From contig JAFZSK010000066.1 in the NCBI GenBank assembly GCA_017620915.1, forward strand, positions 1 through 56,708: 56,708 nt of DNA. Reading direction: 5' to 3'. Below the pieces are notes generated by a model. That model searched no databases. It saw only the letters and a program-made list of their open reading frames with translations, and had not been told where the DNA came from. The position numbers and the translations under genes are program-made. Below, one piece after another: positions 5,411 to 33,085 of this stretch. This DNA is from Clostridia bacterium. GTDB lineage: Bacteria > Bacillota > Clostridia > UBA1212 > UBA1255. Numbering within the stretch: position 1 is the stretch's first letter; each line of letters starts with the position of its first letter.

Positions 5411-7294
5411 ATGGCGCCGAACGAAAAGACCGAAAACAGAAGACCGTGGATAGTGAAGTTGTGCGTGGCGGCGGCGATCGCCGCCGTGTTCATCACGCTG
5501 CTGGTCACCGCGAGCTGCCGGATGCGGAAATATACGGGGCCGATCGTTGCCGTCAACGGAGACTTTGCCGGCGTTGACGACCTCGGGAGAGTCTTGCCGC
5601 TGTCCGGCGGAGCGCCCGAGCTGCGCGACCGCAAAGTCGGCATCTTCTACTTCCTGTGGCAGGGCGAGCACGGCACCGGCGGCCCGTACGACAACTACAA
5701 GACCGTGCTCGAGCACCCCGAAGCGCTGGAGTCCGAGGCCAACTGGATGGCCGCGGGCGGCGGGCCGAGGCACGCGCACCATTTCTGGGGCGAGCCCCTG
5801 TTCGGGTACTACGTGTCCGCCGACGGATGGGTGATGCGAAAGCACGTGCAGATGCTGACCGACGCAGGCATTGACTACATCATGTTCGACGTGACTAACG
5901 CCGTGCCGTATATTGACCGCGTGCGGCAGCTGATCGGTATCTGGTACGAATACCTCGAGCAGGGGTACGACGTGCCGAAACTCACGTTCCTCACCAACAG
6001 CAATTCCGTAGAGATCATAACGCAGCTGTACACCGAAGTCTATGCCAACGCCGCCATGCATAAAAAGTATCCGCGCCTCGACGAACTCTGGTTCAACTGG
6101 GACGGCAAGCCCATGATCGTTGGCTCCGACTGGTTTATATTCCTGGCCGACGAGATCGCGGATTATTTCACTATCAAGGACACTGTCTGGCCCACGTCCG
6201 GCCGCACGGACAACGGCTTCCCCTGGATGGAATTCCACCGGCTCTACACGAACGACGCAATTTACGGGCGGAACGGGCGCAAAGAGGTCGTCAATGTCTC
6301 TGTTGCCCAGCACAATGTCAGCATCAATATGGCCGCGGCGGCCTGGTACGGCGCGGCGGATCATACGCGGAGCTATCACGACGGCGCCGTTGACCGCTCG
6401 CCCGACGCGATACTGTACGGTTACAATCTGGCGGAGCAGTGGGAGTGGGCGATCGGCGTTGATCCCGAAATGGTGTTTGTCACCGGCTGGAACGAGTGGG
6501 TGGCGCAGCGGCAGCCCGGGAGCGAGACGCAGCCGATCAGTTTCGTGGATTGCGCCAGCCCGGAAGCCAGCCGCGACATCGAACCCATGAACGGACTGCT
6601 CGGGGACAATTATTATATGGAGCTCATCTCGTACATCCGTCAATATAAGGGCACGCAGGGCCGCGTGGCGGTAGGGGACAACATCACCATCGATCCCGAC
6701 GGCGGTTTCGGACAATGGGACGACGCGCGCATCACCGCCGTTTACACCGACTACGAACGCGACACGCTGCCGCGGAACGCGCTCGGATTCGGCGGCATAG
6801 AATACAAAGATGACACCGGACGCAACGATTTCGTGAAATTTAAAGTTGCCCGCGACCAGAAATATGTGTATTTTTACGTCGAGACCGCGGAGGACATCAC
6901 GGAGCCGGGTGAGAACTGGATGACGCTGTTCATTGACTCCGGCGCCGCCCGGGACAGCAGGGACCGGAGCGCGTTCTGGCTGGGTTCGATAGATTTTGCC
7001 GTCAACCTGGAGCCGCCCGAGGGCAATACCGCCATCGTGTCCCGCTACACCAAAACCGGCTGGCAGCGCGCGGGCACGGCGGATCTGCGGGTGGAGGGCA
7101 ATAAACTGATGCTCCGCGTGTCCAAAAAGCTCCTGAATGTAGAGCGCTGGGGCCGCCTTATTGACATTCACTTCAAATGGGCGGACAATTATAAATACAA
7201 TGACGATGGCTCGCTGGACGTCTGGACGTTCTACCGGAACGGCGACAGCGCGCCGCTGGGCAGATTGATGTATGTTTTTTCGGAAAGGCAGTGA
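5411..7294 (+). CDS. GH71/GH99-like glycoside hydrolase with C-terminal CBM9/DOMON-like domain
   Basis: The protein has 627 residues. Residues ~13-36 form a single membrane/signal segment ending in TASC, so it is either an N-terminally anchored or lipid-modified exoprotein. Residues ~70-390 resemble the TIM-barrel families GH71/GH99: an IFYFLWQGEHGTGGPYDNY start with aromatic ligands, MLTDAGIDYIMFDVTN, and MVFVTGWNEWVAQRQPG near 352, the W-N-E-W motif seen in this clan. Residues ~430-625 carry a beta-rich domain (KVARDQKYVYFYVETAEDI, then TLFIDSG) similar to CBM9/DOMON sugar-binding modules. The likely role is endo-acting cleavage of mannose- or glucose-containing polysaccharide outside the cell. 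Substrate cannot be told from sequence. The next gene starts only 6 bases downstream. Confidence 0.7.
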   Translation: MAPNEKTENRRPWIVKLCVAAAIAAVFITLLVTASCRMRKYTGPIVAVNGDFAGVDDLGRVLPLSGGAPELRDRKVGIFYFLWQGEHGTGGPYDNYKTVLEHPEALESEANWMAAGGGPRHAHHFWGEPLFGYYVSADGWVMRKHVQMLTDAGIDYIMFDVTNAVPYIDRVRQLIGIWYEYLEQGYDVPKLTFLTNSNSVEIITQLYTEVYANAAMHKKYPRLDELWFNWDGKPMIVGSDWFIFLADEIADYFTIKDTVWPTSGRTDNGFPWMEFHRLYTNDAIYGRNGRKEVVNVSVAQHNVSINMAAAAWYGAADHTRSYHDGAVDRSPDAILYGYNLAEQWEWAIGVDPEMVFVTGWNEWVAQRQPGSETQPISFVDCASPEASRDIEPMNGLLGDNYYMELISYIRQYKGTQGRVAVGDNITIDPDGGFGQWDDARITAVYTDYERDTLPRNALGFGGIEYKDDTGRNDFVKFKVARDQKYVYFYVETAEDITEPGENWMTLFIDSGAARDSRDRSAFWLGSIDFAVNLEPPEGNTAIVSRYTKTGWQRAGTADLRVEGNKLMLRVSKKLLNVERWGRLIDIHFKWADNYKYNDDGSLDVWTFYRNGDSAPLGRLMYVFSERQ

Positions 7295-10541: not shown

Positions 10542-12197
10542 ATGAACGAATTGATCGGCGGAAGATTCAAAGTGCTGGAAACGATCTCGAGCGGCAGAGC
10601 GTACAAGGCGTTCGACACGGACGGGCGCAGAACGGTGTTTCTGAAACGCTGGGAGGCCGGGGATGCTTCGTTCGAAGATGAATCCGCGAATCTGAAGATG
10701 CTGGACAGTCCGCACGCACCGGAGCTGATCTGTGCGTTTGAAGACGAAACGGGCCGCTATCTGGCGGAAGAGTGGCTGGAGGGCGAAACGCTGGAGGCGG
10801 TCGTTGCCGCCGGGCCGCTGGAGCCGGTCGAAGCGGCGGAACTGCTTACGGGGGTGTGCGAGGCGTTGTCCTTCCTGCACTGGAACAAGCAGGGGGCAAT
10901 GGTATTCATCGATCTGAAGCCTTCGAACATAATAATACGGCGCCGGCAGGACAACGCCGATCGCCGGGTCAACGGCGAGATCTTCCTGGTAGATTATGAA
11001 GCGGCCCGGCGTGCGGAGCCGGAACTGCCCGGGACTGACGGGACGAACGCTCGAAACGCCGATATAAAGGATGCCGGGGAACGCACGTTCCGGCTGGGCA
11101 GCAGATATTTCACGGCGCCAGAAGTGCTGTTCGGAAAGATCTGTACGCAAAGCGATATCTATGCGCTGGGTGTGCTGATGGGATACCTGCTCACCGGTCG
11201 CGAAGGTTTTCCCGGCTCGTACGCATTTAAAGGGTTCCCGGGTGAGTTTATAGCGACATGTACGCTGCCCGATCCGGAAGCCCGGTATAAAGGCGTCACC
11301 GGTGTAACCGAGACGCTGCGGCGATTTATACGGGAGAACGCGGCGCCGGAAATGGAACGCGGTGCGGAAGAAAAACGAAAAAAGCGTGAACAGATCAGAG
11401 AAAATCCCGTGAACGAAACGCGGCTCCCGGAACTGCTGAAGCATTTCCGCCGTTCCTGCGTCCTTGTAGAGGGCAACCCTTGCTTTGTCAGCGAACTCTC
11501 CAGTGTGGCGGCGTACAGCATGAAGCTGCGAACGGCGGTATTCTCGTTGACCGAACGCGGTCGCCGGAGCCTCGAGTACTATTTTGCGGGAAATACCGAC
11601 GAAAAGGCGCTGGTTGCCGACAAAAACATGTATCCGTATGTGTTTGACCATAAATCGCTGTACCTGTACGATGTTTCCGAATGGGTAAAGCGCGGGTTAG
11701 TGAAAATGACGGAAAACGACGGCGGACAACTATACCGCGGCGCGTTCAAACTGGCCCTGGAACTGCCGCTGCGCCGGGAAGAGGACGTGCGCCGTTTCGT
11801 TGACTGGTGCTTTGCGAATTTCGACCTGATGCTGCTCAATGTTGACCGCGGGGATGACCGCAAGCTGGTCGGTGCGGCGCTGGAGGCCTGCAGTTACGTG
11901 ATCGCCACGCCCGGATCGAACGTGGAGGACATGGAATCCTTCCGCAACTATTATCTGGCGCTGGCGGAAAACGGGCGGCTGATCTATTCGAAGGTGCGTT
12001 TTGTGGCGTGGGATCACGAGGAACAGGAGGCGCCGCGGGAGCGCCTGTGTCCGGTGGTAGGCAAAGACAAATATCTGGGCGAGATCCGGCGCAGCGAACA
12101 GCGTACACGGCGGCGGAACCGCGTCGACGGAGCCAATACGCTGCTTCCGGAGTGCGGCGGTCAATATGAAGAGATCCTTGAACGGCTCATCAGCTGA
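10542..12197 (+). CDS. Ser/Thr protein kinase-like protein fused to a degenerate ParA/MinD-like domain
   Basis: The 551-residue protein has two parts. Residues 8-~270 are a protein kinase fold: a weak glycine loop (SSGRAYKAF, 16-24), Lys35 in VFLKRW, Asp124 in FIDLKPSN with Asn129 (HRD changed to FID), Asp151 in VDYE (DFG changed to DYE) and GSRYFTAPE for the activation segment. The catalytic Lys, two Asp and Asn are all kept, so activity is plausible despite the degenerate motifs. Residues ~310-550 alternate strands and helices like a MinD/ParA/TadZ NTPase (CVLVEGNPCFVSEL, FDLMLLNVDRGDDRKL, CSYVIATPGSNVEDM) but lack the GK[ST] of a P-loop. There is no transmembrane segment. It is first in the adhesin/TasA locus and probably regulates or positions its export (inference). 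The start has AAAAGGAGGC upstream. Confidence 0.75.
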   Translation: MNELIGGRFKVLETISSGRAYKAFDTDGRRTVFLKRWEAGDASFEDESANLKMLDSPHAPELICAFEDETGRYLAEEWLEGETLEAVVAAGPLEPVEAAELLTGVCEALSFLHWNKQGAMVFIDLKPSNIIIRRRQDNADRRVNGEIFLVDYEAARRAEPELPGTDGTNARNADIKDAGERTFRLGSRYFTAPEVLFGKICTQSDIYALGVLMGYLLTGREGFPGSYAFKGFPGEFIATCTLPDPEARYKGVTGVTETLRRFIRENAAPEMERGAEEKRKKREQIRENPVNETRLPELLKHFRRSCVLVEGNPCFVSELSSVAAYSMKLRTAVFSLTERGRRSLEYYFAGNTDEKALVADKNMYPYVFDHKSLYLYDVSEWVKRGLVKMTENDGGQLYRGAFKLALELPLRREEDVRRFVDWCFANFDLMLLNVDRGDDRKLVGAALEACSYVIATPGSNVEDMESFRNYYLALAENGRLIYSKVRFVAWDHEEQEAPRERLCPVVGKDKYLGEIRRSEQRTRRRNRVDGANTLLPECGGQYEEILERLIS

Positions 12198-12208
12198 GGG
12201 TCGCGCGG

Positions 12209-12898
12209 ATGAACGGTCGGCAGCGCAGTTTTTTGCGCGATATTGCGAAAACCGCGTCATTGCTGGCGGTGAGTCTGGAGGCGGAAGCGGCGGCCGGGGG
12301 CCAGGAACCCTTTTACGTGCTGCTGTGGCACGCGCTGCCGTTCCTGCCGTCAAGCGTCCGTGCGGAAACGGAAGGGCTGCTCCGCGGCGCGGCGACGGAC
12401 GACTGCTTCGAGATCTCCGACTGGTTTGAAGGAATGCGGTGCGCATACGGTAAGTACAGTCAGGTGTTGACGCTGTGCCAGCTGCTGTGCTGCGCCTGGC
12501 GTTCGTACGGACCGGACAGAGGCGCTGAATTGTACCGCTGCGTGGCGGAACTGCTGCGGCTGCTGGCCGCGGCGGTGACCGCGGGCGTCAATAGCGACAG
12601 ACCGCCGGAACTGTCCGGAGTCTGGAGGTCAATGATAAAGCACCGCCGATACTTATTCGGCGATGACCCCGGCACGCGGCGCAGGCTGCTCCTGGGGCTG
12701 GAGTGTTCGATCGGAAAGCGCCGTTCGGACCGGCCGTACCGGCAGCTGGTGCGGGCGTTTCTGGCGAAGGACGCAGGCTGTGCGCGGAGTTCCGAGTCCG
12801 GAAAGGATCCGGGCATCGTGCCGGGTAAACGCAGCCGGGACGGTGTGATCAAACTGTATTTGGGGCTCGTTTGTATCTGTGCTGAGCCGGTTAATTAA
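12209..12898 (+). CDS. Hypothetical protein between kinase and thioester adhesin
   Basis: A 229-residue protein that I do not recognise. It has no signal peptide or clear membrane segment and is predicted mostly helical, with leucine-, alanine- and arginine-rich stretches. Several cysteines occur in one region (LTLCQLLCCAW, LYRCVAEL), and the tail after residue ~190 is basic and low in complexity. It starts 11 bases after the kinase stop and ends 24 bases before the adhesin gene, so it is almost certainly co-transcribed. The ribosome site (GAGGGTCGCG) is weak, which suggests translation coupled to the kinase. A cytoplasmic accessory factor for the kinase or for secretion is the simplest guess, but nothing in the sequence proves it. 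Confidence 0.6.
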   Translation: MNGRQRSFLRDIAKTASLLAVSLEAEAAAGGQEPFYVLLWHALPFLPSSVRAETEGLLRGAATDDCFEISDWFEGMRCAYGKYSQVLTLCQLLCCAWRSYGPDRGAELYRCVAELLRLLAAAVTAGVNSDRPPELSGVWRSMIKHRRYLFGDDPGTRRRLLLGLECSIGKRRSDRPYRQLVRAFLAKDAGCARSSESGKDPGIVPGKRSRDGVIKLYLGLVCICAEPVN

Positions 12899-12922
12899 TA
12901 TAAACGATGGAGGAAGCGGAAA

Positions 12923-15433
12923 ATGATTATTGCGAATAAACAGCCGGAGATTTCGGCCGTTGTCAAAAGATGGAAAAAGATCGCTGCGCTGATGTTGTCC
13001 GTGATGATGCTGGCGGTATTTGTACTGACCGGTCCGGTCAACGAAGCGGCGTCCGGCGGAGCGCGCAGCGGCAGCATGGTACCGCTCACCGGATACGGCG
13101 GCGCGGAGTATTATAAAAAGACGAATTATTACGTCAATATCTACGGCGACAACGGGCAGATCGTAGAAGTACGGCAGCGCCCGGGAGGCAGCCGGCAGAA
13201 GATGTACGTGTTGACGGATCCGGCAAGCGGCACGCAGCAGTACGCATATTGCCTCGCTTCGGGATTGTCATTCAAAACGTCGGCGGAGTTTACCGCCGGC
13301 GGCCAGGATACCATATTCAGTGGATACTTTAACAACCTGCCGGAAACAGCGCAAAAAGGCATCGCATATGCTTCGATCTACGGATACAGCGATAAAAACG
13401 ATGCTCCGGACGCTCCGGGTCCGGTGGAAGGAACGATCGGCGCGGACTTCTGGATGGCCACGCAGTGTGTGATCTGGGAGTATCAGCAGGGGATTCGTGT
13501 TGACGCCGGCGCGCGAGAGACGCACGGACTTGTGGAGGCGGACAACTACTACTTTATGATCAAAGGCAAACCCGCGGAAAAGTGCTACGATTACCTGCTG
13601 GAACAGATCCGGCAGGCATCGTCGGTACCGGGATTCGCGGCGGATGATTCTTCCGGCTGGACGGACAATATCGTGACGCTGGACGAGATATATTCCGGTG
13701 CGGGCACGTATACCGGATCCGTTTTCGCCGGCGGGCAGCTGCCGGCGGGCAGTTATACGGTCACAGACGCGAACGGACAGGCGGTGCCGTACCTGACAGT
13801 GATGCGGAACGGAGACCGGTTTACTTTCAGATCTTCACAGGCACTCGAAACGCCGCTGAATCTGGTCATTAAGCGCACGGAGGATCCGGGCAATGAGGGT
13901 GCCGCGGTATTTTTCGCACCGGCGGATACAGGCATTCAGACCATGCTCAGCGCCAGCGGCCGGCTGAGCGATCCGTATAAATTGTACTTCAGTATTCAGA
14001 CGCGCTCGCTCCAGGGGGACCGGGTCACGCTGAACATTCAGAAGACCGCCGCCAACGGCCGTGTATCCGGCATCCCGTTCCAGCTCTGCTGGGCGGACAA
14101 CGACGGCGAAATGAGCAGCATGACAGTATATACAGACGATGCCGGCAGTATCGCGCTGAATCTGCCTATTGGCGACTATCCGGGAGCAATAACGACGCGG
14201 CAGACCGGTTTTGCGATCGGAGAGCTGGTCGGAGATAAATATTTCGGCAGTCTCACCGGATCAAGCGGAAATGTCTACGGCACGTTCTCCGCTTACTTGT
14301 TTCGGGAAGAACATGACGGCGGGATCCGCTGGAACTATTCTTTTATGATGGAAGACGCGCGTTCCCGCTCGTGTGACGGCAACGTTGTGAGCGGTCACTA
14401 TGTCCTGCTGGCCGGAAACGCGACCAACAATACTGTGACGCTAAAATACAGAAATGATCCGCGATACGGCGGCGTACGTCTGCGCAAAACTTCCGAGGAC
14501 GGCACGCTGCAGGGTTTCCGATTTCTGCTTTCCGGTACCGATCCGGACAACAGCGACATCCAGCTCATCCGGACCACCGATTTAGAGGGCATCGCGGAAT
14601 GGAACGACCTGATGCCGGGCAACTATGCGGTAACAGAACTACTGGAGGAGGGCAGCCTCTGGGAACACCTGGACACAATATATGTGACGGTCTCCGCAGA
14701 GGAGACAGTAGAGATCACGGCCTTCAACCGCCTGAAGCCCGGAATACTGAAGATATATAAAACTGCGGAAGACGACCGCTTCGACGGCGTATCTTTCAGG
14801 GTCAGCGGCGTTGACAACGACTTCTTTGCCGTTATCGAGCCGGATGACGAGAGCCTGAACTGGGAGAACGGCAAACAGACCATGCAGGGAGTATTGACCG
14901 GACTGAGCCCCGGGCGTTACACAATAACCGAGATCTGCCCGGATCGGTACAATACGCCGGAACCGGTCACCGTGACGGTATATTCGGGGCTGACAACGGA
15001 ACAACGCTTTAATAATACTGTTGCCCGCGGTGCGCTGACTGTGGAGAAACAGATCTACGCGGAACAGTTCGTGGCGGCTCACGGCAATGCGGTATTCATA
15101 TTCAAGATCACCGGCCTCGACAGCGGCCGTACATACCATCGCGTGATCGAGTTTGATCAGAACGACGTTGACGGCCGCACCGGCCTTGTTTCAAAAAGTT
15201 TTACGCTGGAGGGATTGGCGCCGGGGCAGTACACGGTGGAAGAATTGAAAACGCTCCGGTATGAAATCGAATCGGTCACAGTGACGCCGGGAGGGAGCGT
15301 TTCGGAGAAAGTTGCTACACTGCGCGTATCCCGGGACGGCGAGCGGCCGAAAGTCACGTTCGTCAACGCGGTGATAAACCAGGAAGATACATCCCACACG
15401 GCGCTGTGTGTCAATAAATTCGATTTCACCTGA
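12923..15433 (+). CDS. Thioester-domain (TED) surface adhesin with Cna-B/SpaA-like domains
   Basis: An 836-residue exported protein. A signal segment spans ~17-37. Residues ~60-230 match thioester domains: Cys110 in YAYCLASG and Gln181 in MATQCVIWEY are in the positions that form the internal Cys-Gln thioester. In known TED adhesins this bond reacts covalently with host amines. After a linker come four prealbumin-like repeats of Cna-B/SpaA type (starting near NIQKTAANG, GVRLRKTSEDG, GILKIYKTAEDD and GALTVEKQIY). Their late E in the ITE/VTE/VEE motif can form lysine-asparagine isopeptide bonds. No LPXTG motif or C-terminal membrane helix is present; the protein simply ends TALCVNKFDFT. Either anchoring is through the fibre proteins encoded next, or the C-terminus was lost. 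GGAGG lies upstream of the ATG. The SipW-type peptidase gene follows 29 bases downstream. Confidence 0.85.
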   Translation: MIIANKQPEISAVVKRWKKIAALMLSVMMLAVFVLTGPVNEAASGGARSGSMVPLTGYGGAEYYKKTNYYVNIYGDNGQIVEVRQRPGGSRQKMYVLTDPASGTQQYAYCLASGLSFKTSAEFTAGGQDTIFSGYFNNLPETAQKGIAYASIYGYSDKNDAPDAPGPVEGTIGADFWMATQCVIWEYQQGIRVDAGARETHGLVEADNYYFMIKGKPAEKCYDYLLEQIRQASSVPGFAADDSSGWTDNIVTLDEIYSGAGTYTGSVFAGGQLPAGSYTVTDANGQAVPYLTVMRNGDRFTFRSSQALETPLNLVIKRTEDPGNEGAAVFFAPADTGIQTMLSASGRLSDPYKLYFSIQTRSLQGDRVTLNIQKTAANGRVSGIPFQLCWADNDGEMSSMTVYTDDAGSIALNLPIGDYPGAITTRQTGFAIGELVGDKYFGSLTGSSGNVYGTFSAYLFREEHDGGIRWNYSFMMEDARSRSCDGNVVSGHYVLLAGNATNNTVTLKYRNDPRYGGVRLRKTSEDGTLQGFRFLLSGTDPDNSDIQLIRTTDLEGIAEWNDLMPGNYAVTELLEEGSLWEHLDTIYVTVSAEETVEITAFNRLKPGILKIYKTAEDDRFDGVSFRVSGVDNDFFAVIEPDDESLNWENGKQTMQGVLTGLSPGRYTITEICPDRYNTPEPVTVTVYSGLTTEQRFNNTVARGALTVEKQIYAEQFVAAHGNAVFIFKITGLDSGRTYHRVIEFDQNDVDGRTGLVSKSFTLEGLAPGQYTVEELKTLRYEIESVTVTPGGSVSEKVATLRVSRDGERPKVTFVNAVINQEDTSHTALCVNKFDFT

Positions 15434-15462
15434 TCCGCGCCGGCAAGGCACAGGGAAATAAC

Positions 15463-15972
15463 ATGAAAAAAGTGTTGAAAACAGCGTTCAAAGTGCTGCT
15501 TTGGGCGGTGCCGGTCCTGTTGATCGCCATTTTGGTGTCCCAACTGGCAGGCGTGCGGTATCTGTGCGTGCTGTCGCCGTCAATGGAGCCGGAACTGCCT
15601 GTAGGAAGTCTGGTGGTGATCGTTCCCGCGGATCCGGCACGCGTCAAGCTGGGGGACAACCTCGCGTATCTGACCGGCGGCAACATCGTTACTCACAAAG
15701 TTCTGCTGAACGACACGGAGGAACGCACAATAAAAACTAAAGGGATCGCAGGCAAACTCGAAGACGCCCCGGTGCCGTACGAAGCGGTGCTGGGCGTAGA
15801 GATGTTCTGCATTCCCGGCGCCGGCCGGATCGCGTCGGCAATAAAAACACCCGCGGGGAAGGCCGCGCTCATGACGGCCGGGGTCTTATTCGTACTTGTC
15901 CTGTTGATTCCGGAGTTCCTGCCCGGAAAACGACGCAGGACCGCAGCAGCCGAACCGGATCTGACTGTCTGA
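15463..15972 (+). CDS. SipW-type (Ser/His, ER-type) signal peptidase I
   Basis: A 169-residue membrane protease with two membrane segments (about 8-30 and 128-148). Ser40 in LSPSMEPELPVGSL is the nucleophile, and the general base is a histidine, His78 in GGNIVTHKV. This Ser/His arrangement, instead of the Ser/Lys of ordinary bacterial signal peptidases, defines the SipW/archaeal-eukaryotic branch. TKGIAGKLEDAPVP corresponds to the later conserved region. In Bacillus subtilis SipW processes TasA and TapA. Here it lies directly upstream of genes for three TasA/camelysin-like products with matching signal regions, so these are its likely substrates. The basic C-terminal tail GKRRR lies on the cytoplasmic side. 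Confidence 0.92.
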   Translation: MKKVLKTAFKVLLWAVPVLLIAILVSQLAGVRYLCVLSPSMEPELPVGSLVVIVPADPARVKLGDNLAYLTGGNIVTHKVLLNDTEERTIKTKGIAGKLEDAPVPYEAVLGVEMFCIPGAGRIASAIKTPAGKAALMTAGVLFVLVLLIPEFLPGKRRRTAAAEPDLTV

Positions 15973-16007
15973 GACAGCAGATTAATAAATTTTAAGGAGG
16001 CTTCATT

Positions 16008-16721
16008 ATGAAAAGAAGCGAAAAAATCATCTTTGGGATCCTGACGCTGGGTCTGCTGGCCGTACTGGTGATAGGCAGTACACTCGCCTACATGACGGAC
16101 CGGGAAAACAAGGAAAACACCTTCACCGTGGGTACGCTGGACGTATCGCTGGAAGAGAAAAACTGGGATGACGACACGGACGGCGACGAGGCGGTCCCGG
16201 GCGACACGTTCGTTAAAGACCCGGTGGTGACCGCGGTCAAAAACGACAGCTATATCCGCGTCCGTGTAACCATCAAAGATTCCGCTACCGGGCGGACCAT
16301 CAGCGATGCCGACAGACTGGCGCTGATCTGCCAAATGATCAAATATGACAGCACGTACAAAGCGGATACCCAGACTCCCGGCACGGCGATCGTCAAAGAC
16401 GATTCCTACAGCAGCGCGGATCTCGCGGCCATGCCGATGGTCAATCCGGCATTCACGCAGGTTACTTCATCGACCGCAGGCGAATATGTGTTCAACTTCA
16501 ATGAGATCCTTGAAGAAGGCGGCAAAGTGGCGCTGTTCACCAACCTGGTCGTGCCTGCGGACTGGTCGCAGGTGCAGCTGGATGTTGTCGGCGCGTTCAA
16601 GATCGACGTTGTCGTCGAAGCGATCCAGGCGAAGAATTTTGACACTTCCGCGGAGGCGTTTGCCGCGCTGGACGAAGAGATCAGAAATGGTACAAATGTG
16701 AGCAATTACGTGGCCGGTTGA
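16008..16721 (+). CDS. TasA/camelysin-like fibre protein with SipW-dependent signal
   Basis: The 237-residue precursor has a signal peptide ending GSTLAYMTDRENKENTF, the classic SipW-type boundary (aliphatic core, then T-L-A-Y-x-T-D and an N-x-F within ten residues). The mature part begins VGTLDVSLEE and has the camelysin/TasA beta-sandwich pattern: a V-P-G-D-x-F-x-K-D-P-V-V-x-A-x-K-N motif for the partner strand, then SYIRVRVTI. Homologues build amyloid-like or pilus-like fibres in biofilm matrix by donor-strand exchange. It directly follows the SipW-type gene, with TAAGGAGGC as ribosome site. At 237 residues it is close to TasA size and could be the major fibre subunit (inference). Confidence 0.88.
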   Translation: MKRSEKIIFGILTLGLLAVLVIGSTLAYMTDRENKENTFTVGTLDVSLEEKNWDDDTDGDEAVPGDTFVKDPVVTAVKNDSYIRVRVTIKDSATGRTISDADRLALICQMIKYDSTYKADTQTPGTAIVKDDSYSSADLAAMPMVNPAFTQVTSSTAGEYVFNFNEILEEGGKVALFTNLVVPADWSQVQLDVVGAFKIDVVVEAIQAKNFDTSAEAFAALDEEIRNGTNVSNYVAG

Positions 16722-16847
16722 CGGAGCACGTGATTTATTAAGCGGTTTTTGCGCGGTTGATTGCGTGAAAACAAAAGGGAATGCAGCGGAAGGCCGGGCG
16801 TGAAACGGTCTTTCCGCGCATCCCGGATGATCGGGAGGAACCGGACG

Positions 16848-18686
16848 ATGCGTAAATTTTATATTATTACTCTGGTTGTGCTTGCCTGTGTATTTGCGGT
16901 GAGCGGTATATTCGCGGCCGCAGACTGGTACCGGGAAGACCGGACAACAAACATCATTTCCGTGGGCGAACTCAGCGGCGACCTGATCGATATTTATGAG
17001 CAGGGGACCATCGTGATGCCCGGAGACCGCGTGAGCAAAGTGGTCTCGGTGAAAAACTCCGGCTCTTCCGACGGACTGGTGCGGGTCAGGCTGGAAAGTA
17101 TGTGGGCCGATTCGGGCGAGGAAACCGCCCCGGAGCAGTTTTCGTTCGAGGTCAATGAGAAAAACTGGCTATTTGACGCCGGCACCGGCTATTACTATTA
17201 CCTGGGCGTACTGGCGCCGGGGGAGACAACGGAGCCGCTGCTGGATTCGTTCAGCGTCAGCGGCCCGGAGCTGAACAACTATTATTCATACCGCCCCGGG
17301 TGTATTCTGGTGACAATGGAGATGGTACAGGCCGCCGCGGAGGGCATCTCGCTGTGGGACAAAACAAATTCAGATCTGGGTATCGAATATCAGGAGCGGC
17401 CCGGATACAGCGCTGAGGATGATACCGGCGTGGATTTCGAGGGGCCGGAAGACGGCTTTTTATTCGGAGACAACGGCGATCTGTTCGCCTCGTTTAAAAA
17501 TATTCTGCCCGGGCAAACAATAATACAGAGGATAAATGTGGGCAGCCGGCACGGCGAAACTACCGAGATATTTCTGAAGGCAACGCCGACCGACGGAACT
17601 ACATTGTCTCCTGAAACGGAGGCGCAGCTGACGGAGCTGTTGACGAAATATGTAGATTTGAAAGTCAGTGTCGGGGGCAATGTTGTCTACCGCGGCCCCG
17701 TCTGGCAGGATGGTGTACGCTTAAAGAGCGCCGGCGCGGAAACCGCTATATCCGGATTGTACGATGACGGCATCAGCCTGGGGCGGTTCTACACCGGCGA
17801 CGGACTGCCGGTGACCGTTGAACTGGAACTGAGCCGCGATGTGGGCAACGAGTTCCAGAACCTCGCAGGAGAAATCGACTGGGTGTTTTCCGCCAGCGGC
17901 ACCGATCAGCCGCCGATCCCGCAGACGGGCGACAAAAGCAACAGAATATATTTAATTATCATGCTCGCGGCCGGGGCGGCCTGTCTGGTGCTGATGGCGG
18001 CGAGGGCAGTTGCCGTCCGCAAAAAGCGCGGCGGGCGAAATGTCAACGGCGTGCGCTTCGTCATGCCCGTATTGTCCGCATTGCTGCTGACGGGACTGCT
18101 GATCGGGGCGGCAATATTGACCGGCGGCACGTCCGCGTTCATGACCGACGCGGAGAGCTGTGAAAACGAAGCGAGCATGGGAGAACTGTCGATCGAACTG
18201 AGCGAGCCGTCGTTTGTGCCGGACCAGGTACTGCACCCGTGCCAGACGGTGGACAAAGATCCGCAGGTGACAAATACCGGCAGCGTTCCGGCGCTGGTAT
18301 ATCTCAAAGTTACGGTGCCGATAAAGCGGGTGAAGACCGTATCCCACGAAACGAAAATGATCCTGCCGGCGGAGTCTCACGAGCTGTTCTCCTTCGCTGC
18401 GCCGGAGGATTGGCTTCCGGTCGGACGGTACAACCGGTTTGAACCAAACGGAGATCATTACGCGATCTATGTTTACGGTTATCGCGGTGTGCTGGGACCC
18501 GGCGAGACCACGCCCCCGTTGTTTGAAACGGTAACATTTATAAATCTTTTGGAAGGCGAGCTGCCCGCCGGGACAGAGGCCGTGATCGATATTGACGCAT
18601 ACGGGCTGCAGAGTGAGCATATTGCCGACAAACTCGATATCGATGCGCGGCTGCAATACGGCTATGACAAATTCTTTAAGGAGTGA
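16848..18686 (+). CDS. Fused double TasA/camelysin-like precursor with internal wall-sorting signal
   Basis: One uninterrupted frame of 612 residues contains what normally are two secreted proteins. Part 1: a signal segment (MRKFYIITLVV to AADWYREDRTTN), then a TasA/camelysin-like domain to ~350, then a complete sorting-signal-like tail with PIPQTGD at 356-362, a hydrophobic helix and RKKRGGR. Part 2 follows without a stop: a second SipW-type signal (VMPVLSALLLTG to TSAFMTDAES around 402-430) and another TasA-like domain with the D-K-D-P-x-V-x-N-T-G motif, ending at 612. The start is the ATG at 16848 because GGGAGG lies nine bases upstream; the frame is open back to 16761 without a ribosome site. 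An internal start near 18051-18063 could release part 2 separately. Either this is a real polyprotein cleaved by SipW and sortase, or a recent gene fusion. Confidence 0.8.
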   Translation: MRKFYIITLVVLACVFAVSGIFAAADWYREDRTTNIISVGELSGDLIDIYEQGTIVMPGDRVSKVVSVKNSGSSDGLVRVRLESMWADSGEETAPEQFSFEVNEKNWLFDAGTGYYYYLGVLAPGETTEPLLDSFSVSGPELNNYYSYRPGCILVTMEMVQAAAEGISLWDKTNSDLGIEYQERPGYSAEDDTGVDFEGPEDGFLFGDNGDLFASFKNILPGQTIIQRINVGSRHGETTEIFLKATPTDGTTLSPETEAQLTELLTKYVDLKVSVGGNVVYRGPVWQDGVRLKSAGAETAISGLYDDGISLGRFYTGDGLPVTVELELSRDVGNEFQNLAGEIDWVFSASGTDQPPIPQTGDKSNRIYLIIMLAAGAACLVLMAARAVAVRKKRGGRNVNGVRFVMPVLSALLLTGLLIGAAILTGGTSAFMTDAESCENEASMGELSIELSEPSFVPDQVLHPCQTVDKDPQVTNTGSVPALVYLKVTVPIKRVKTVSHETKMILPAESHELFSFAAPEDWLPVGRYNRFEPNGDHYAIYVYGYRGVLGPGETTPPLFETVTFINLLEGELPAGTEAVIDIDAYGLQSEHIADKLDIDARLQYGYDKFFKE

Positions 18687-18691
18687 TCAAT

Positions 18692-19264
18692 ATGCAAAAC
18701 GGCGGAAAGACCGCGAAAATCATAAGAATAATAGTATTGACTGTGCTGATAATTGCCGCGGCGGCGTGCACCGGCGTAACACTGGCATATCTGACAGACA
18801 GCGACGAAGCGAAGAACCCGTTTACGGTCGGCGAGACAGAAATTGAGATCCGCGAGACGTTTTCGCCGGATGGCGACGTGCCGGAACCGGGGGGGAGCGT
18901 GCCGAAAGTGGTGCGCGTCGTCAATACCGGAAACCTGACCTGCCTCATCCGCGTCCGGCTCCTTTTTGAAGACGACACGCTGGAGAAGGTCGTGGAACCA
19001 TTTGTGACCGGTCAGGGATGGGATCAGTTTCCGGACGGCTTTTATTATTACGTTTATCCGGTCAAACCTGGCGGAAGCACGATCCCGCTGATCGAGGAAG
19101 TGAAGCTCCGGATCGAACACGAGGACGGAACGGATGTCAGTGCGGATGAACTGGAAAAGATCAGTTCCGGGATAATCGTTTATTCGGAGGCGATCGGATA
19201 CCGCGGCGACCCGGCGCTGCCCTGCACTGCGGCGGAGCTGGCGGCGCTGTGGGGTGAATTTTGA
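18692..19264 (+). CDS. Camelysin/TasA-like exported protein
   Basis: A 190-residue precursor starting at the ATG at 18692, with AAGGAGTGATC upstream overlapping the stop of the fused gene. The signal region ends TLAYLTDSDEAKNPFTVGE, again a SipW-type boundary. The mature domain begins EIEIRETFSPDGDVPEPGG and continues VPKVVRVVNTGNLTCLIRVR, the strand pattern of TasA-like domains, with YYYVYPVKPGGSTIPLIEEV further on, which parallels YYYYLGVLAPGETTEPLLDS in the preceding protein. No sorting signal is present. It could be a minor fibre or tip subunit. It is the last gene of the locus; a strong promoter for the next gene starts 30 bases downstream. Confidence 0.85.
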   Translation: MQNGGKTAKIIRIIVLTVLIIAAAACTGVTLAYLTDSDEAKNPFTVGETEIEIRETFSPDGDVPEPGGSVPKVVRVVNTGNLTCLIRVRLLFEDDTLEKVVEPFVTGQGWDQFPDGFYYYVYPVKPGGSTIPLIEEVKLRIEHEDGTDVSADELEKISSGIIVYSEAIGYRGDPALPCTAAELAALWGEF

Positions 19265-19294: not shown

Positions 19295-19324
19295 TTGACA
19301 TATAGCTGGAAAATATAGTAAAAT
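19295..19324 (+). promoter_or_regulatory. Sigma-A-type promoter for the ABC transporter
   Basis: TTGACA at 19295-19300 is followed by an 18-base A+T-rich spacer and TAAAAT at 19319-19324, 48 bases before the ATG of the ABC transporter gene. This separates the transporter from the TasA-like locus. Confidence 0.75.
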
Positions 19325-19371
19325 ACACCCTGTGCCGTTTGTGGTATCACGGTAAGAAATGGGGTTCCGGC

Positions 19372-22300
19372 ATGCTCGAATTATACGAAATTAAGAAAAA
19401 CTATCCGGTTGGAGACGGAGTGGTCAAGGCGCTCCGGGGCATTGACCTGTCCTTCGGCGAGAAGGGGTTTGCGGCGGTGCTGGGGCCTTCGGGCTGCGGC
19501 AAGACGACGCTGCTCAACATCATCGGCGGTCTGGATCACTATACCGAGGGCGACCTGGTCATCAACGGCCGCTCTACCAAAGAATATAAAGACCGCGACT
19601 GGGATGCGTACCGCAACCATTCCATCGGATTCGTGTTTCAGACATATAACCTGATACCGCATCAGACCGTACTGAGCAACGTGGAACTGGCGCTTACGCT
19701 CGCGGGCATCTCAAAAGCGGAACGCCGCGCCGCGGCCAAACGAGCACTGGAAGAAGTTGGATTGGGTAATCAGCTCAAAAAGAAGCCGGCGCAGTTGTCA
19801 GGCGGCCAGATGCAGCGGGTAGCCATTGCGCGGGCACTGGTCAACGACCCGGACATTATTCTGGCGGATGAACCCACAGGCGCGCTGGACACGGAGACCA
19901 GTGTTCAGATCATGGAAATATTGCAAAAGGTATCCAAAGACCACCTGGTCGTGATGGTGACGCACAACCGCGAACTGGCGGAGACGTACGCCACGCGTAT
20001 AATTCAGGTGCTGGACGGCCGGATCGTCAGCGACTCGGTCAACGACGCCCGTGAGACCGTTCCGGATGCTGATGCAAATGTCAAGGCGGAAGCCCCGGCC
20101 GCGCAAGGCTCGGACGATACGCAGCCTGCGCGCCGCAAGAAAAAGCCGTCGATGTCGTTTTTTACGGCGCTGATGCTGTCGCTCAACAATCTGCTGACGA
20201 AGAAAGGCCGGACGATATTGACCGCGTTCGCCGGCAGCATCGGCATCATCGGCATCGCACTGATCTATTCGGTATCGTCGGGAACGAACCGGTATATTGA
20301 CCGTATACAGGAAGATACATTGTCCTCGTATCCGATCGTGATCGAAAGTAAACATACAGATATCAGCGAACTGCTGAAGAGCATTTCGGGCAGCCGCGAC
20401 GGTAACCATGAACACGAAAACGATGCGATCTACCAGCGCGTTTCTATGTACAACATGGTCAATACCATCAATAACATGAACATCACTGAAAACGATCTGG
20501 GTTCGTTCAAGAAATTCCTGGACAAAGAGATGGCGGATCCGGACAGCAAATACCGGAGCAGCATTTCGGGGCTGCGATATTCATACGACGTGGAGGTACT
20601 GGCGTATACTAAAAATATCGAAAACAACATTGTCCGCTCAGACACGACCGAACTGATGGCGCGCGTTATGACTAAATTCTGGGGCACGGATATCTCTTCC
20701 GCCCCGGGCCGGACTTCGAATCAGTCGTTTTCTATGCTGTTCTCCGGCTCGAACGATTCCGGAATGTGGGAAGAACTGCTGCCGGGCTTGAACGGAGAGC
20801 CGGTGAGCAATATTATATTGACGCAGTACGACCTGGTATACGGCGACTGGCCTAAGGAGAAAGACGAGGTTGTCCTCGTCCTGGACAGCAGCAACGAGGT
20901 GTCTGACCTTGTGCTGTTCGCACTGGGCGTAAAAACCAGCAAAGAGATCGATGATACTATTGACGCCGCGTTTGCGGGTGAGATGCTGGATACAGAGCTT
21001 AAAAAATGGTCGTACGAAGAACTGTGCGGCCGCGAGTTCAGGGTATTGATCAATTCGGACTGTTTCATCCGGGACGAAGGCGGGACCGGGCGGTTCAGCG
21101 ATATTCGCAATACGGAAGCCGGACTGCGTTTTCTGTACAACAACGGATTGCCGGTCAGGATCACCGGTGTGATCCGGCCGAACGCGAATACGACTTCGCC
21201 TATGCTCCGGGGCAATATCGGCTATACATACATGCTGACCGATTACATAATCAGCAAGACCGCAGGCTCGCCGGTAGCGGAAGCGCAGCTTAAAACGCCC
21301 GGCACGGACATATTTACCGGGCTGCCCTTCGCGGACAACATCACACTGCTCTCCGACGCGGAAAAAGCCGCCGCGCTGCGTTCATATATCGGGGAACTTG
21401 ATACGGCGGGCAAGGCGGCAACATACGTGCGCATCGTAAGCACGCCTTCGGAAGAACAGATCGCCGCGATGCTCGAGGCGGCAATGGCGGGCATGACCCG
21501 GGAAGAAATGGAGAACGCACTGATCAGCGGCGCCGCCGAACAGGCCGGAATGAGTGAGCCGGAGATCCGAAAATACCTGGATTCGATGTCCGACGAGGAT
21601 CTGATCGAACTGATCCGCACCCTGATAACGGAGCGCATGAAGTCCGAATATGCGCAGGCAGCCACTATGCGGCTTAAAGGCATGACTGATGAAGAACTGG
21701 CGGGAGAGCTTGATATGCTGCTGCCGACGCTGTCTGATGCGCAGGCCGCGCTGCTTTACGAGACTGCGCTGGAGTTCTCCGATTCCACGCTGGAGGAGAA
21801 CCTTAAGGCGATCGGCAGCGTGGACAAAGAGGTGCCGGCCGGCGTAAGCATCTACACTTCCACGTTCGCAGGCAAAGATAAGATCAAGGAAATGATCAAC
21901 AAGTACAACGACAGCGTGGATGAATACTCTGTAATTAACTATACCGACGCGGTGGGCATACTGATGAGTTCGATCACTACGATCATCAACAGCATTTCCT
22001 TTGTGCTCATCGCGTTTGTGGCCATCTCGCTGATCGTATCGTCAATAATGATCGGCGTGATCACGCTGATCTCCGTGCAGGAGCGTACGAAAGAGATCGG
22101 TATACTGCGCTCGCTGGGCGCGTCCAAACGAAATGTTGCCGGCATGTTCCTGGCGGAGACGGTGATAATCGGATTTATATCCGGCGTGCTGGGCGTGGCG
22201 GTGAGCTGGCTGCTGATATTGCCGCTCAACGCGATCATCCATTCGCTCACGAAAATGACGGCGCTGAGCGCGTACCTGCCGTTTAAGGCGGCAATCGTGC

Positions 22301-22398
22301 TGATACTTATCAGCATGGCGCTGACCGCGATCGCCGGACTGATCCCGTCGGGCAGCGCGGCCCGGAAAGATCCGGTGGAAGCGCTCAGAACAGAGTGA
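19372..22398 (+). CDS. ABC transporter, fused ATPase and FtsX/MacB-type permease
   Basis: A 1008-residue protein. Residues 1-~230 are an ATPase of the LolD/MacB type: Walker [10 protein letters not shown] at 38-46, signature [15 protein letters not shown], Walker [13 protein letters not shown] and the switch H-loop MVTHN. After a charged linker come the first membrane helix ([18 protein letters not shown]), a ~560-residue extracytoplasmic domain, and three C-terminal helices with the FtsX signature [21 protein letters not shown]. In single-chain MacB-like systems such proteins act mechanically on lipids, lipoproteins or peptides. The ectodomain has a glutamate- and alanine-rich helical insert ([20 protein letters not shown], a part of it). 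I choose the ATG at 19372 because the ATPase then begins MLELYEIKK as usual; the ribosome site (GGGGTT) is weak. Confidence 0.92.
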
Positions 22399-30412: not shown

Positions 30413-31813
30413 TTATTTTGCAGTAAACTCCCACCACAGCGTATTGCCGATCTCGTGTACCGGTACAAATATCGCGAGGGTTTCACGGTTGCCGGTCTTG
30501 CTGTTGGGCGAGTGGATCGAGAGATATAATTGACCGTCCGTGTCACGGAAAAGCATGCCGTGGCCGCCGTCGTAACTCGCCGAGAGCCGCTGGGAATACA
30601 GTTCGTACGGGAGCTGCTTCCAGGGGCCGGTGATCTTGCCGCTTTCGGAGCGCGCCATGCCCACCGCGTAGCCCGCTTCGTCGAAATTGGACCACAACAT
30701 CAGCAGGCTGCCGTCGCTCGCTGGGTAGAGCCAGGGGCCGTCGGTGATGTTGCCCGTTGCCCACGGCGCGTCAGTGCCCATGAAGATATCCTTCGGCTCG
30801 GAGATCAGTTTGGTCAGGTCCGGGGACAATTTTGCCGCCGACATCCGGCCGATGCCGTCCGCGTTGCCCGTCCATTCGTGGACAAATACCATCCAGGGCT
30901 GGCCGGCGTTGTCAACGTACAGCGTGCCGTCAATGCAGTCCCACTCGGCGGGCGTGACGTGCCCGTCGGAGATCATTTCGAACGGTCCCTCCGGCGTATC
31001 GGCGCGGAAGATCGCGCAGCCGCGGTGGTCGGACGAAACTTTGTGGTACGTGGCGAACATATAGAACGCGCCGTTGTATTTATGCACCTCCGGCGCCCAA
31101 TACTGGGTGTCCGAATCCTCGGGTTTTTGCTCGGTCATCTGGAACGGGCCTTCCCACGCGCCCGCCAGGCTGCCCGAAGTGTTTTTAAAGTATTTCCAGC
31201 CGGTGCCGTACATGTAGTACACGCCGTTTTCTATCACGATGCACGGGTCGCGCAGGGAGACGGGGGTGGTGATCACGCTTTCCTCCGGCGTGACGCTGCC
31301 TTTGATATCCGTGTTTTCGGGCAATGCCAGCCGGCCGTTTTCCGCGTCGTAAAACTCCGTGAGCAGACGGTCAACGGCGCACGTCCGCGCCAGATCCCCC
31401 CTAAACGCCACGGAGATAACGATCCGGTCCGCATCGGTACTTTTGCTGACTTTGATCGCGTATTCGTCCTTTTTCAGTGCTTGCGTCAATTCAAAGCACT
31501 CGGGCACTTCGGACGCGCCGAAGGCGAGGATATATTTGGTATCGCCGATGTCTTGACCGCTTTCCTGCGAGATGCGGGCGTTCAGCGCGGAGCGCAGGGC
31601 GTCAACGATAAACGCCGCGGCATCCAGCGTATCGGTCTCGGCGTACTCGTCGGTCACCAGTTTGTACGCGGACTTGCAGCCCGCGGCGGCGATCACCGCT
31701 TTGCCGTCTTCGAAAGCCGGACCGGTCTTTTGCTGTTTGCAGCCCGCCGCACCGCTCATGCCCAGTGCCAGCGCCGTAATTCCCGTCAACATCAATACCA
31801 TCTTGCGTTTCAT
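30413..31813 (-). CDS. GH43-like lipoprotein (five-bladed propeller glycosidase)
   Basis: A 466-residue lipoprotein with a signal ending in SGAAGCKQQ (Cys25). Residues ~180-466 form a GH43-like propeller: Asp189 in SLRDPCIV (general base position), Asp295 in WDCIDGTLYVD (pKa modulator), and ITDGPWLYP around 358 where the general acid Glu normally sits but Asp is present. GGHGMLF and LSIHSPN match a GH43 subgroup. Residues ~35-170 look like the N-terminal alpha/beta domain found before some family GH67 and related catalytic domains (inference). The family cleaves arabinose- or xylose-containing glycans. AAAGGAGTAA precedes the start, and the metallophosphoesterase gene lies 24 bases upstream. 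Confidence 0.82.
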   Translation of the reverse strand: MKRKMVLMLTGITALALGMSGAAGCKQQKTGPAFEDGKAVIAAAGCKSAYKLVTDEYAETDTLDAAAFIVDALRSALNARISQESGQDIGDTKYILAFGASEVPECFELTQALKKDEYAIKVSKSTDADRIVISVAFRGDLARTCAVDRLLTEFYDAENGRLALPENTDIKGSVTPEESVITTPVSLRDPCIVIENGVYYMYGTGWKYFKNTSGSLAGAWEGPFQMTEQKPEDSDTQYWAPEVHKYNGAFYMFATYHKVSSDHRGCAIFRADTPEGPFEMISDGHVTPAEWDCIDGTLYVDNAGQPWMVFVHEWTGNADGIGRMSAAKLSPDLTKLISEPKDIFMGTDAPWATGNITDGPWLYPASDGSLLMLWSNFDEAGYAVGMARSESGKITGPWKQLPYELYSQRLSASYDGGHGMLFRDTDGQLYLSIHSPNSKTGNRETLAIFVPVHEIGNTLWWEFTAK

Positions 31814-31837
31814 AATAATTACTCCTTTATTGTTCCA

Positions 31838-32935
31838 TTATATTGTATCACTTTTATTGTTGATCCCGTCGCCGGCGCGGTCCAGCCGCTCCCAGAAGTC
31901 GTCTTTGAGCCGGGTGTACAGGTGTTTGACGGTAAATCCGTTGTCAGATCCATCCAGCGTGATCAGCGTGCCGCCCAGCATGTCGGCGTTGTGATAATCG
32001 TAAACGCCGGTCTTGAGGCCGAACGTGTAGCGCACGCCGCCGCTCAGGATCGAAGTGCAGTTTTTGTGGTAGTGGCCAACGAAAATGCCGCTACCGCCCG
32101 CCGCCTTGAAAAACTCCAGAAACGCTTCGTTGTCGCCCACGCGCCCCTGCGGGTCGTCGCGCTTGCCGAAATCGCCGTTGCGGGCGGGCAATGTCACGCC
32201 GAGCTCATATTTAGCCCATGCGTCGTCAACATGCTGGTAACCCGCGTCTGCCGCGGCGCGCAGGAATTCATCGGAGGGGATGTGGTAGCACGCGAACAGC
32301 GGCGGCACGGTCCCGCACCGCTCCCGGACTTCGTCCAGCGCCTTCTGGCACAGCGCGATCTGATCCGGCCGGATCCCGGGGTGGGTGAGGCAGCCGTGGC
32401 TGTCCAGCATGAGGAGGGTGCGAACTGCGGAGGGGACAGACCTCTCGCCATCACTAATACGGAGGTCTGTCCCCAATGTCACCGCATAGTTGCCGTGGCC
32501 GGTGGCGTCGCCGCGCATGAACAGGCAGTGGGGCAAGCTCTCGAAATACGCGCACTGGCGGTCAACGCCGAACTCCGTCTCGTTGTCGTGGTTGCCGAAC
32601 ACCGGCGCCCAGGGGATGCCGAGATTTTCGAAAAAATCGCAGAAATCACGGAACTGGCGGCCGGAGTCGTCGAATTCGCCGTATACGTTGTCGCCGGTGA
32701 TGACGATCAGGTGAGGCTGTGCGGCGTCGATTGCCTCCTGCACGTAGCGGTAGGCGTTGTCCCAGACGCGGTCCGGCGTCCACTTCAGCCGTTCGCGCGT
32801 GCACAACCGGTCCGTCCGCCGCATCTGATCCGAGTCGATTATCTGTATGTCCGTAAGCTGCAGTATGCGCACTTCGCCCGCGGGGACGGTGACAAAACTG
32901 CCGTATTTTCCTTTTATGATCGCGCTGCCTGCCAT
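31838..32935 (-). CDS. Calcineurin-like metallophosphoesterase
   Basis: A 365-residue phosphoesterase from the ATG at 32935 (GGAGGTGCG upstream). It has the metal-binding motifs LTDIQ, ITGDNVYGE, FGNHDNE (with the catalytic His), CYHIPS and GHYHKN, which are the five blocks of the calcineurin-like fold with a bimetal centre. No signal peptide is seen, so it is probably cytoplasmic. Relatives act on phosphodiesters or phosphomonoesters, including cyclic nucleotides; the substrate here is unknown. The coding region carries a 13-bp perfect inverted repeat of the dispersed family (32432-32474), translated as GTDLRISDGERSVPSA in a surface-loop position. It lies upstream of the GH43 gene and is probably co-transcribed with it. 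Confidence 0.88.
   Translation of the reverse strand: MAGSAIIKGKYGSFVTVPAGEVRILQLTDIQIIDSDQMRRTDRLCTRERLKWTPDRVWDNAYRYVQEAIDAAQPHLIVITGDNVYGEFDDSGRQFRDFCDFFENLGIPWAPVFGNHDNETEFGVDRQCAYFESLPHCLFMRGDATGHGNYAVTLGTDLRISDGERSVPSAVRTLLMLDSHGCLTHPGIRPDQIALCQKALDEVRERCGTVPPLFACYHIPSDEFLRAAADAGYQHVDDAWAKYELGVTLPARNGDFGKRDDPQGRVGDNEAFLEFFKAAGGSGIFVGHYHKNCTSILSGGVRYTFGLKTGVYDYHNADMLGGTLITLDGSDNGFTVKHLYTRLKDDFWERLDRAGDGINNKSDTI
32432..32474. repeat. Inverted pair of dispersed repeat cores inside the phosphoesterase gene
   Basis: GGGGACAGACCTC at 32432-32444 and its exact reverse complement GAGGTCTGTCCCC at 32462-32474 are separated by 17 bases. They would form a strong 13-bp stem in mRNA or in single-stranded DNA. 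The arms share the ACAGA/TCTGT element with the family, but the flanking arms differ. Confidence 0.85.
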
Positions 32936-33013
32936 GGCGCACCTCCGAACTGGATCTGGCGTCAATATAGCCCATTCCGCCGCAAAATGCAAGTGGCCCG
33001 GGTCAATATCAGA

Positions 33014-33042
33014 TTGCGCTTTCTGCCTGAAGGTAGTAAAAT
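33014..33042 (+). promoter_or_regulatory. Promoter for the surface protein gene at 33086
   Basis: TTGCGC at 33014-33019, a 17-base spacer and TAAAAT at 33037-33042. GCCTGA (33025-33030) and TCAGGC (33053-33058) flank the -10 box as an inverted repeat, which may be an operator or a 5' mRNA hairpin. Confidence 0.6.
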
Positions 33043-33085
33043 ATGCTCGTTGTCAGGCCATCTGATGACGATTGGAGGAACTAAA

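Follow-up and report, generated by a model that had tools for sequence, protein, structure and literature searches.

A kinase related to pilus localization proteins heads a candidate surface-attachment cassette with a thioester adhesin and TasA-like genes in a genus of Clostridia

A seven-gene block in a Clostridia bacterium

The DNA analyzed here, which we call the window, is a stretch of 56,708 nt from a Clostridia bacterium (GCA_017620915.1, contig JAFZSK010000066.1, forward strand), and all coordinates refer to it. Between positions 10542 and 19264, seven plus-strand genes encode a fusion of a kinase with a ParA-like domain, a protein without a known family (ORF2), a thioester domain (TED) adhesin, a SipW-type signal peptidase, and three TasA-like products (TasA1, TasA2, and TasA3). 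An initial annotation of the same DNA had described seven consecutive same-strand genes, and every open reading frame (ORF) was located at the positions it gave. Two starts were corrected: TasA2, the sixth ORF, probably begins at ATG 16848 rather than at TTG 16761, and TasA3 probably at ATG 18692. The features of the block and of the spacer that follows it are listed here.

10542..12197, + strand: Ser/Thr kinase (aa ~1-270) and degenerate ParA/MinD (TadZ/CpaE-related) domain (aa ~300-551); PF00069 and profile matches; no predicted transmembrane (TM) segment
12209..12898, + strand: ORF2, predicted all-helical, no TM segment, restricted to the genus; AlphaFold pLDDT 84.9
12923..15433, + strand: TED adhesin with signal peptide and SpaA/Cna-B repeats, no LPXTG/TM anchor; PF08341, PF17802
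15463..15972, + strand: SipW-type signal peptidase (Ser/His); TIGR02228 E=5e-18, over the cut-off
16008..16721, + strand: TasA1, TasA-like subunit 1 with SipW-type signal; TIGR04088 E=7e-11 (over the cut-off), PF12389 E=4e-8
16848..18686, + strand: TasA2, TasA-like polyprotein; TIGR04090 E=6e-24 (over the cut-off), LPXTG_anchor TIGR01167 E=0.007
18692..19264, + strand: TasA3, TasA-like subunit 3 with SipW-type signal; TIGR04088 E=2.5e-7 (over the cut-off), TIGR04090 E=7e-13
19295..19324, + strand: sigma-70-like promoter, TTGACA-18-TAAAAT, 11/12 consensus positions, between the last gene and an ABC transporter gene

The genes up to TasA1 are separated by gaps of 11, 24, 29, and 35 bp; 126 bp lie between TasA1 and TasA2, and 5 bp between TasA2 and TasA3. 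A sequence scan found no good promoter or terminator between the part of the block that ends with TED and the TasA part, and plus-strand promoter matches within the seven genes are weak (9/12). The whole region contains 11 promoter matches, against 5.0 +/- 2.3 in shuffled sequences. An internal promoter splitting the blocks had been named in the initial annotation as evidence that would speak against its reading; none is convincing, and the best plus-strand match lies 3' of the last gene. This promoter, at 19295 to 19324, probably marks the end of the transcription unit ahead of the ABC gene. Upstream, a small lipocalin-like gene in the opposite orientation lies 5' of the kinase gene. The GC content of the seven genes, overall and at third codon positions (GC3), is similar to that of the flanking genes, giving no obvious sign that the block was recently inserted from a foreign source.

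For comparison, we used 7 genomes of the genus (G000-G006), 31 of the order, and 391 of the class. The block and the ABC gene occur in the same order in all seven genus genomes, although the G003 contig begins inside ORF2, so that its kinase is not seen. As the proteins of the block are only about 31 to 89% identical within the genus and the order is still kept, the cluster is more than chance, which supports the seven-gene set as a conserved unit in its genus. The ABC gene itself (19339-22398), an ABC ATPase-FtsX permease fusion of 1008 to 1019 aa, follows the block in 7/7 genus genomes and is probably a separate transcription unit.

ORF2 is present in all seven genus genomes and nowhere else among 146 genomes searched. 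Its model gives a weak match to a SpoIIIAB-like helical structure (Z 8.0), which is within the noise for helical bundles. No similarity was found between ORF2 and the 212-aa gene that occupies the same place in G012. The idea that ORF2 is a degenerate TadB or TadC, prompted by the SpoIIIAB-like match, is unsupported: hhalign gave 0.6% for TadC and 1% for TadB, with a TadC-TadB positive control reaching only 25%.

The kinase carries a TadZ-related C-terminal domain

The N-terminal part of the first gene product is a Hanks-type kinase domain (PF00069, E=2e-20), and the catalytic residues K35, E47, D124, N129, and D151 are invariant across 26 kinase homologues. Compared with solved structures, its model has a predicted PknB-like fold (Z 25.6, root-mean-square deviation 2.1, 224 aligned). 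The fold matches listed for the whole-kinase model against the PDB are all kinases, so this comparison does not address the fold of the C-terminal domain, which we call KinC.

KinC comprises about 250 residues and has no Pfam name. Among solved structures, its profile (A3) matches a single one, PF-32 (3k9g), which belongs to the ParA family (E=2.4e-4), and the P-loop motif GK[ST] is absent from 26/26 homologues; the "degenerate ParA-like" label of the initial annotation was thus right. Its similarity to the separate MinD-like gene of locus L136 was not significant. In other Clostridia, a KinC-type domain lies at the TadZ/CpaE position of Tad loci, with either a kinase or a receiver-like N terminus. 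The domain occurs in 39/391 class genomes, and most strong matches with a readable neighborhood adjoin Tad genes. In one class locus (L131), TadA (T2SSE E=5e-28) comes after the kinase-KinC protein; in another (L132), a KinC-type C terminus with a receiver-like N terminus is followed by TadA (T2SSE E=7e-23) and TadB (T2SSF E=5e-5). Further, hhalign matched KinC to the receiver-like proteins of Tad loci at 97.2%, E=3e-11 (L141) and 99.9%, E=2e-35. The L141 version matches CpaE_hom at E=1.3e-4, under that model's cut-off, and the receiver-like N termini of the class relatives L130, L132, and L133 were assigned by eye, without a Pfam match.

Published TadZ consists of an atypical receiver and a ParA/MinD ATPase (PMC13170226). 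Judged from its sequence, the kinase protein of the window looks like TadZ with a kinase replacing the receiver and with the P-loop lost. It shares with the TadZ/CpaE proteins of Tad pili (E. rectale TadZ, Caulobacter CpaE; PMC13170226) the ParA/MinD-like domain and homologues at the TadZ position, and differs from them in having a kinase instead of a receiver, no P-loop, and a genome without a Tad machine. We take it to descend from, or to work like, TadZ, and we do not class it as TadZ because it lacks two defining features.

Tad and TED cassettes alternate behind the kinase

KinC is found, as a single copy, in 27/31 order genomes, with split matches in G026 and G017. What follows the kinase gene varies. 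TED comes directly after it, or after one small gene, in G000-G002, G004-G006, and G012 of the same family and in G020 and G022 of another family. A divergent Tad cassette follows it in G008, G010, G011, G014, G015, G017, G019, and G021, and in reduced form in G007. In the f4 genomes, the kinase has neither cassette. The Tad cassette comprises CpaB-like, TadA-like, TadB-like, TadC-like, and small prepilin-like genes; it is identified by RcpC/CpaB matches (PF16976 E=4e-4 in G015; TIGR03177 E=1e-9 in a class relative), by a TadA match (TIGR03819 E=1.7e-10), and by T2SSE/T2SSF matches. Amidase and HEAT-like genes upstream of the kinase are common to G012, G020, and most Tad-type genomes, indicating that the kinase gene and its site are constant and the cassette after it varies. 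The block of the window's genus sits away from this site.

Nine genomes have the cognate TadA (E<=1e-249): all Tad-cassette genomes except the reduced G007, plus G013, where it lies on another contig. Genome-wide, G000-G006 and G012 contain no cognate TadA at E<=0.001; in G020, G022, and the f4 genomes, the sole match is a second type of ATPase with weak similarity. Among the genomes compared, this distribution makes Tad and TED mutually exclusive within the family. In a kinase tree of 29 rows, the placement of TED needs two changes, a single change suffices in 0/200 bootstrap trees, and the outgroup state is Tad. Behind the kinase gene of this family, the Tad machine and the TED adhesin substitute for one another.

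Across the 391 class genomes, TED occurs in 60 and BsaA-family genes in 37, and the two are adjacent only in the window's genus; with a broader model of the SipW signal, no such neighbors turned up in the remaining TED genomes. The initial annotation had read the seven genes as one covalently attaching fibre system and had proposed comparing gene neighborhoods. That comparison bears it out in part: the genus keeps the gene set as a unit, and the kinase recurs beside TED on two separate branches. The association of SipW/TasA with the kinase does not extend beyond this genus; still other relatives have a Tad pilus cassette after this kinase, or the kinase by itself. What stays constant across the order is thus the kinase-TadZ-like regulator, to which the TasA fibre was added late.

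A separate observation concerns a divergent family of TadA-type ATPases, with the P-loop GSDMGVGKST, in divergent Tad loci (L098:11468-13216, L091:7211-8920, and L136:7473-9131). TIGR03819 matches the L091 member at E=1.7e-10, and those of L098 and L136 have no T2SSE Pfam match.

An anchorless adhesin and a TasA-like polyprotein with an internal PQTG motif

The TED protein matches PF08341 at E=5e-10 (over the cut-off) and has three SpaA domains, consistent with the thioester adhesin with Cna-B-type repeats described in the initial annotation. With motif definitions taken from PMC6194298, we located Cys110, TQxxPhiW at 180-185, and the candidate bond residue Gln339 (IQTML). The Cys, the TQxxPhiW motif, and the candidate Gln are kept in 10/10 kinase-linked TEDs, with a Cys-Gln distance of about 220 to 229 residues. 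These motifs suggest that a Cys-Gln thioester would bond covalently to a surface.

None of the TEDs of the seven genus species has an LPXTG motif or a C-terminal TM segment, in agreement with the earlier claim that the adhesin has no wall anchor of its own. The TEDs of G020 and G022, which stand beside the same kinase in a locus without TasA genes, end in PETGD or PQTGD followed by a TM segment. The genus TEDs share the C-terminal tail NQE[KDR][TS][ST][DH]TA[FLY]C[VIE]N.F. A wall anchor (LPXTG) is usual, not universal, among TIE/TED adhesins. With SfbI, Cpa, BaTIE, and CpTIE (PMC4450167, PMC6194298), the TED of the window shares the Cys in a YC-hydrophobic motif, TQxxPhiW, and a Cna-B-type stalk. 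Its Cys-Gln spacing of 229 is class II-like, compared with 171 and 204 in the published class II pairs (PMC4450167, PMC6194298). Unlike these adhesins, the genus TED is anchorless and placed between a kinase-TadZ gene and SipW/TasA genes. The window's own genome also encodes a second TED, on contig C100 (L112:3683-10375), of 2231 aa with 13 FctA/Spy0128-like isopeptide domains; it is unlinked to kinase or TasA genes.

The signal peptidase, present in 7/7 genus genomes, has the Ser in SPSMEPE and, instead of Lys, a His in THK. Together with the TIGR02228 match, these motifs agree with its earlier assignment as a Ser/His-type enzyme. Similarly, matches to TIGR04088 and TIGR04090 support the earlier description of three TasA/camelysin-like products, with the correction that ORF 6 contains two TasA-like parts. 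Read from its N terminus, TasA2 consists of a signal, a TasA/BsaA-like part, [IVA]PQTGD (IPQTG in the window, at aa 358), a TM segment, a K/R-rich basic loop, a second TM segment, an AFMTD SipW-type site, and the second TasA-like part. TasA2 has three TM segments in all. This architecture is encoded in one ORF in all seven genus species, which, given their divergence, argues against an assembly error.

The PQTG, TM, and K/R elements of TasA2 are conserved in 7/7 species, internal to the ORF, and the genome has one sortase gene. A wall anchor may therefore exist in the locus, on TasA2 instead of the adhesin. From its sequence, TasA2 would be an unusual precursor with two SipW-type signals and an internal sortase-type PQTG/TM element, for which double processing is predicted. 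Bacillus TasA polymerizes by donor-strand exchange (PMC10151520), and by analogy the TasA-like products may form fibres.

Other SipW/TasA loci of the same family contain different large proteins: a VWA protein of 1523 aa (L117), a PA14/fibro-slime protein of 1075 aa (L118), and an unannotated protein of 2249 aa (L119). A large head protein beside TasA-like subunits may thus be a general design.

A possible fibre-held adhesin under a repurposed pilus regulator

Our best reading is that a pilus regulator outlasted its pilus and became the partner of a covalent adhesin. We tentatively regard the locus as a surface-attachment cassette under this repurposed regulator, with the adhesin held by fibres, an interpretation that we consider plausible without being confident of it. 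TED would be exported by the Sec pathway and bond covalently to a surface through its Cys-Gln thioester. SipW would release the TasA-like subunits, which would polymerize by donor-strand exchange as Bacillus TasA does, and the N-terminal half of TasA2, wall-anchored via its internal PQTG, would form the fibre base. The unanchored TED is probably displayed on the TasA fibres through a physical link that we infer, perhaps mediated by the conserved C-terminal tail. On the cytoplasmic side, the kinase-TadZ protein would place or gate assembly by phosphorylating some target. In keeping with this arrangement, the TED anchor is missing where TasA genes are present, and TasA2 carries a PQTGD-type motif (both 7/7). 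The most specific form of the proposal, in which a Tad localization protein with a kinase in place of the receiver, kept after pilus loss, positions or gates TED on fibres made from a polyprotein cut by SipW and sortase, is unlikely to hold in every part. Several observations weigh against our reading. SipW/TasA is joined to TED in one genus only and lies beside no other TED among 61 genomes scanned. As KinC lacks a P-loop, TadZ-like ATP-driven positioning cannot be assumed. The PQTG motif lies inside a longer polypeptide, sortase use is unproven, and the NCBIfam LPXTG match reaches only E=0.007. Finally, the kinase also occurs without adjacent surface genes in the f4 genomes, so a wider role may apply.

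The main rival is that two independent modules lie side by side: an old kinase-TED module, and a SipW-TasA matrix module of recent acquisition with fibres that carry no TED, the TED anchor having been lost for another reason, such as a secreted TED that cross-links the matrix. Each module can indeed stand alone, as kinase-TED occurs without adjacent SipW/TasA in G012, G020, and G022, and SipW/TasA loci without TED occur in G011, G013, G014, and G015. The 11- to 35-bp spacing up to TasA1, the strict co-conservation in 7/7 genomes, the coincidence of TED anchor loss and the TasA2 PQTG with the joining, and the absence of a good promoter or terminator between the blocks all argue for a single unit, leaving the two-module explanation possible but doubtful. 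It is rather improbable that the kinase regulates the envelope or the cell cycle in general and its neighbors are incidental, its gene lying at a chromosomal site that receives surface cassettes, with amidase and HEAT-like genes upstream and a conserved 193-aa gene downstream. Such a role would fit the shared upstream genes in Tad-, TED-, and no-cassette genomes and the f4 genomes that retain the kinase without a cassette; yet the genus block left the site with kinase, ORF2, and TED still together, Tad operons throughout the class have the C-terminal domain in the place of TadZ, and the TED pairing arose twice. The homology to Tad-locus proteins could also mean that the kinase-TadZ protein works for a Tad pilus whose genes lie at another place in the genome, its adjacency to TED being accidental. 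The absence of the cognate TadA ATPase from the seven genus genomes and G012 largely refutes this explanation, which we regard as very improbable.

If the preferred reading of a repurposed regulator with a fibre-held adhesin is true, the cytoplasmic controller of a retractile pilus is separable from its machine and can be recruited to a covalent adhesin unrelated to that machine. Thioester adhesins and TasA-type fibres, until now treated as two distinct means of attachment, would also be linked. The more interesting findings are the origin of the kinase in Tad pilus control and the Tad/TED exchange, which suggests that bacteria exchanged one attachment device for another and kept the controller. 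The tidiness of this exchange, with Tad or TED behind one kinase and the putative anchor on the fibre subunit, not the adhesin, makes the idea directly testable.

Relation to known systems

The initial annotation had held the combination to be undescribed as one system; likewise, the open-licence literature that we searched described neither TED together with SipW/TasA nor a fusion of a kinase with TadZ. The whole cluster was not found outside the window's genus among the sampled class genomes. Its closest parts are familiar. With sipW-bsaABCRSD of Clostridium perfringens (PMC7395162) and tapA-sipW-tasA of Bacillus, the locus shares SipW and BsaA/TasA-family subunits in one operon, and its TasA-like ORFs match TIGR04090, the BsaA family model. 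The partners differ: the C. perfringens system has a two-component system, putative secreted proteins, and no LPXTG in BsaA (PMC7395162), whereas here the partners are a kinase-TadZ fusion and TED, and one of the TasA ORFs encodes a polyprotein that has PQTG in its interior. Kinase/FHA-linked variants of the type VII secretion system, some beside Tad genes and one with a TadZ-like component (PMC11217815), are likewise Gram-positive surface machines with dedicated Ser/Thr kinases; unlike in those variants, no EssC or WXG100 was seen among the annotated genes here.

Other observations

Two further ORFs of the window have no Pfam match. The first (5411-7294) encodes a lipoprotein-like protein of 627 aa that is strongly conserved in G007 (L090:1231-3099, E=2e-230). 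The second (30530-33808) encodes 1092 aa and adjoins a low-GC stretch (28-30 kb, GC 0.45). Other contigs with the same kinase domain come from metagenome-assembled genomes labeled Clostridia bacterium, uncultured Ruminococcus sp., and Mageeibacillus sp., and four of these contigs are from the rumen or cecum of buffalo or yak or are of RUG origin.

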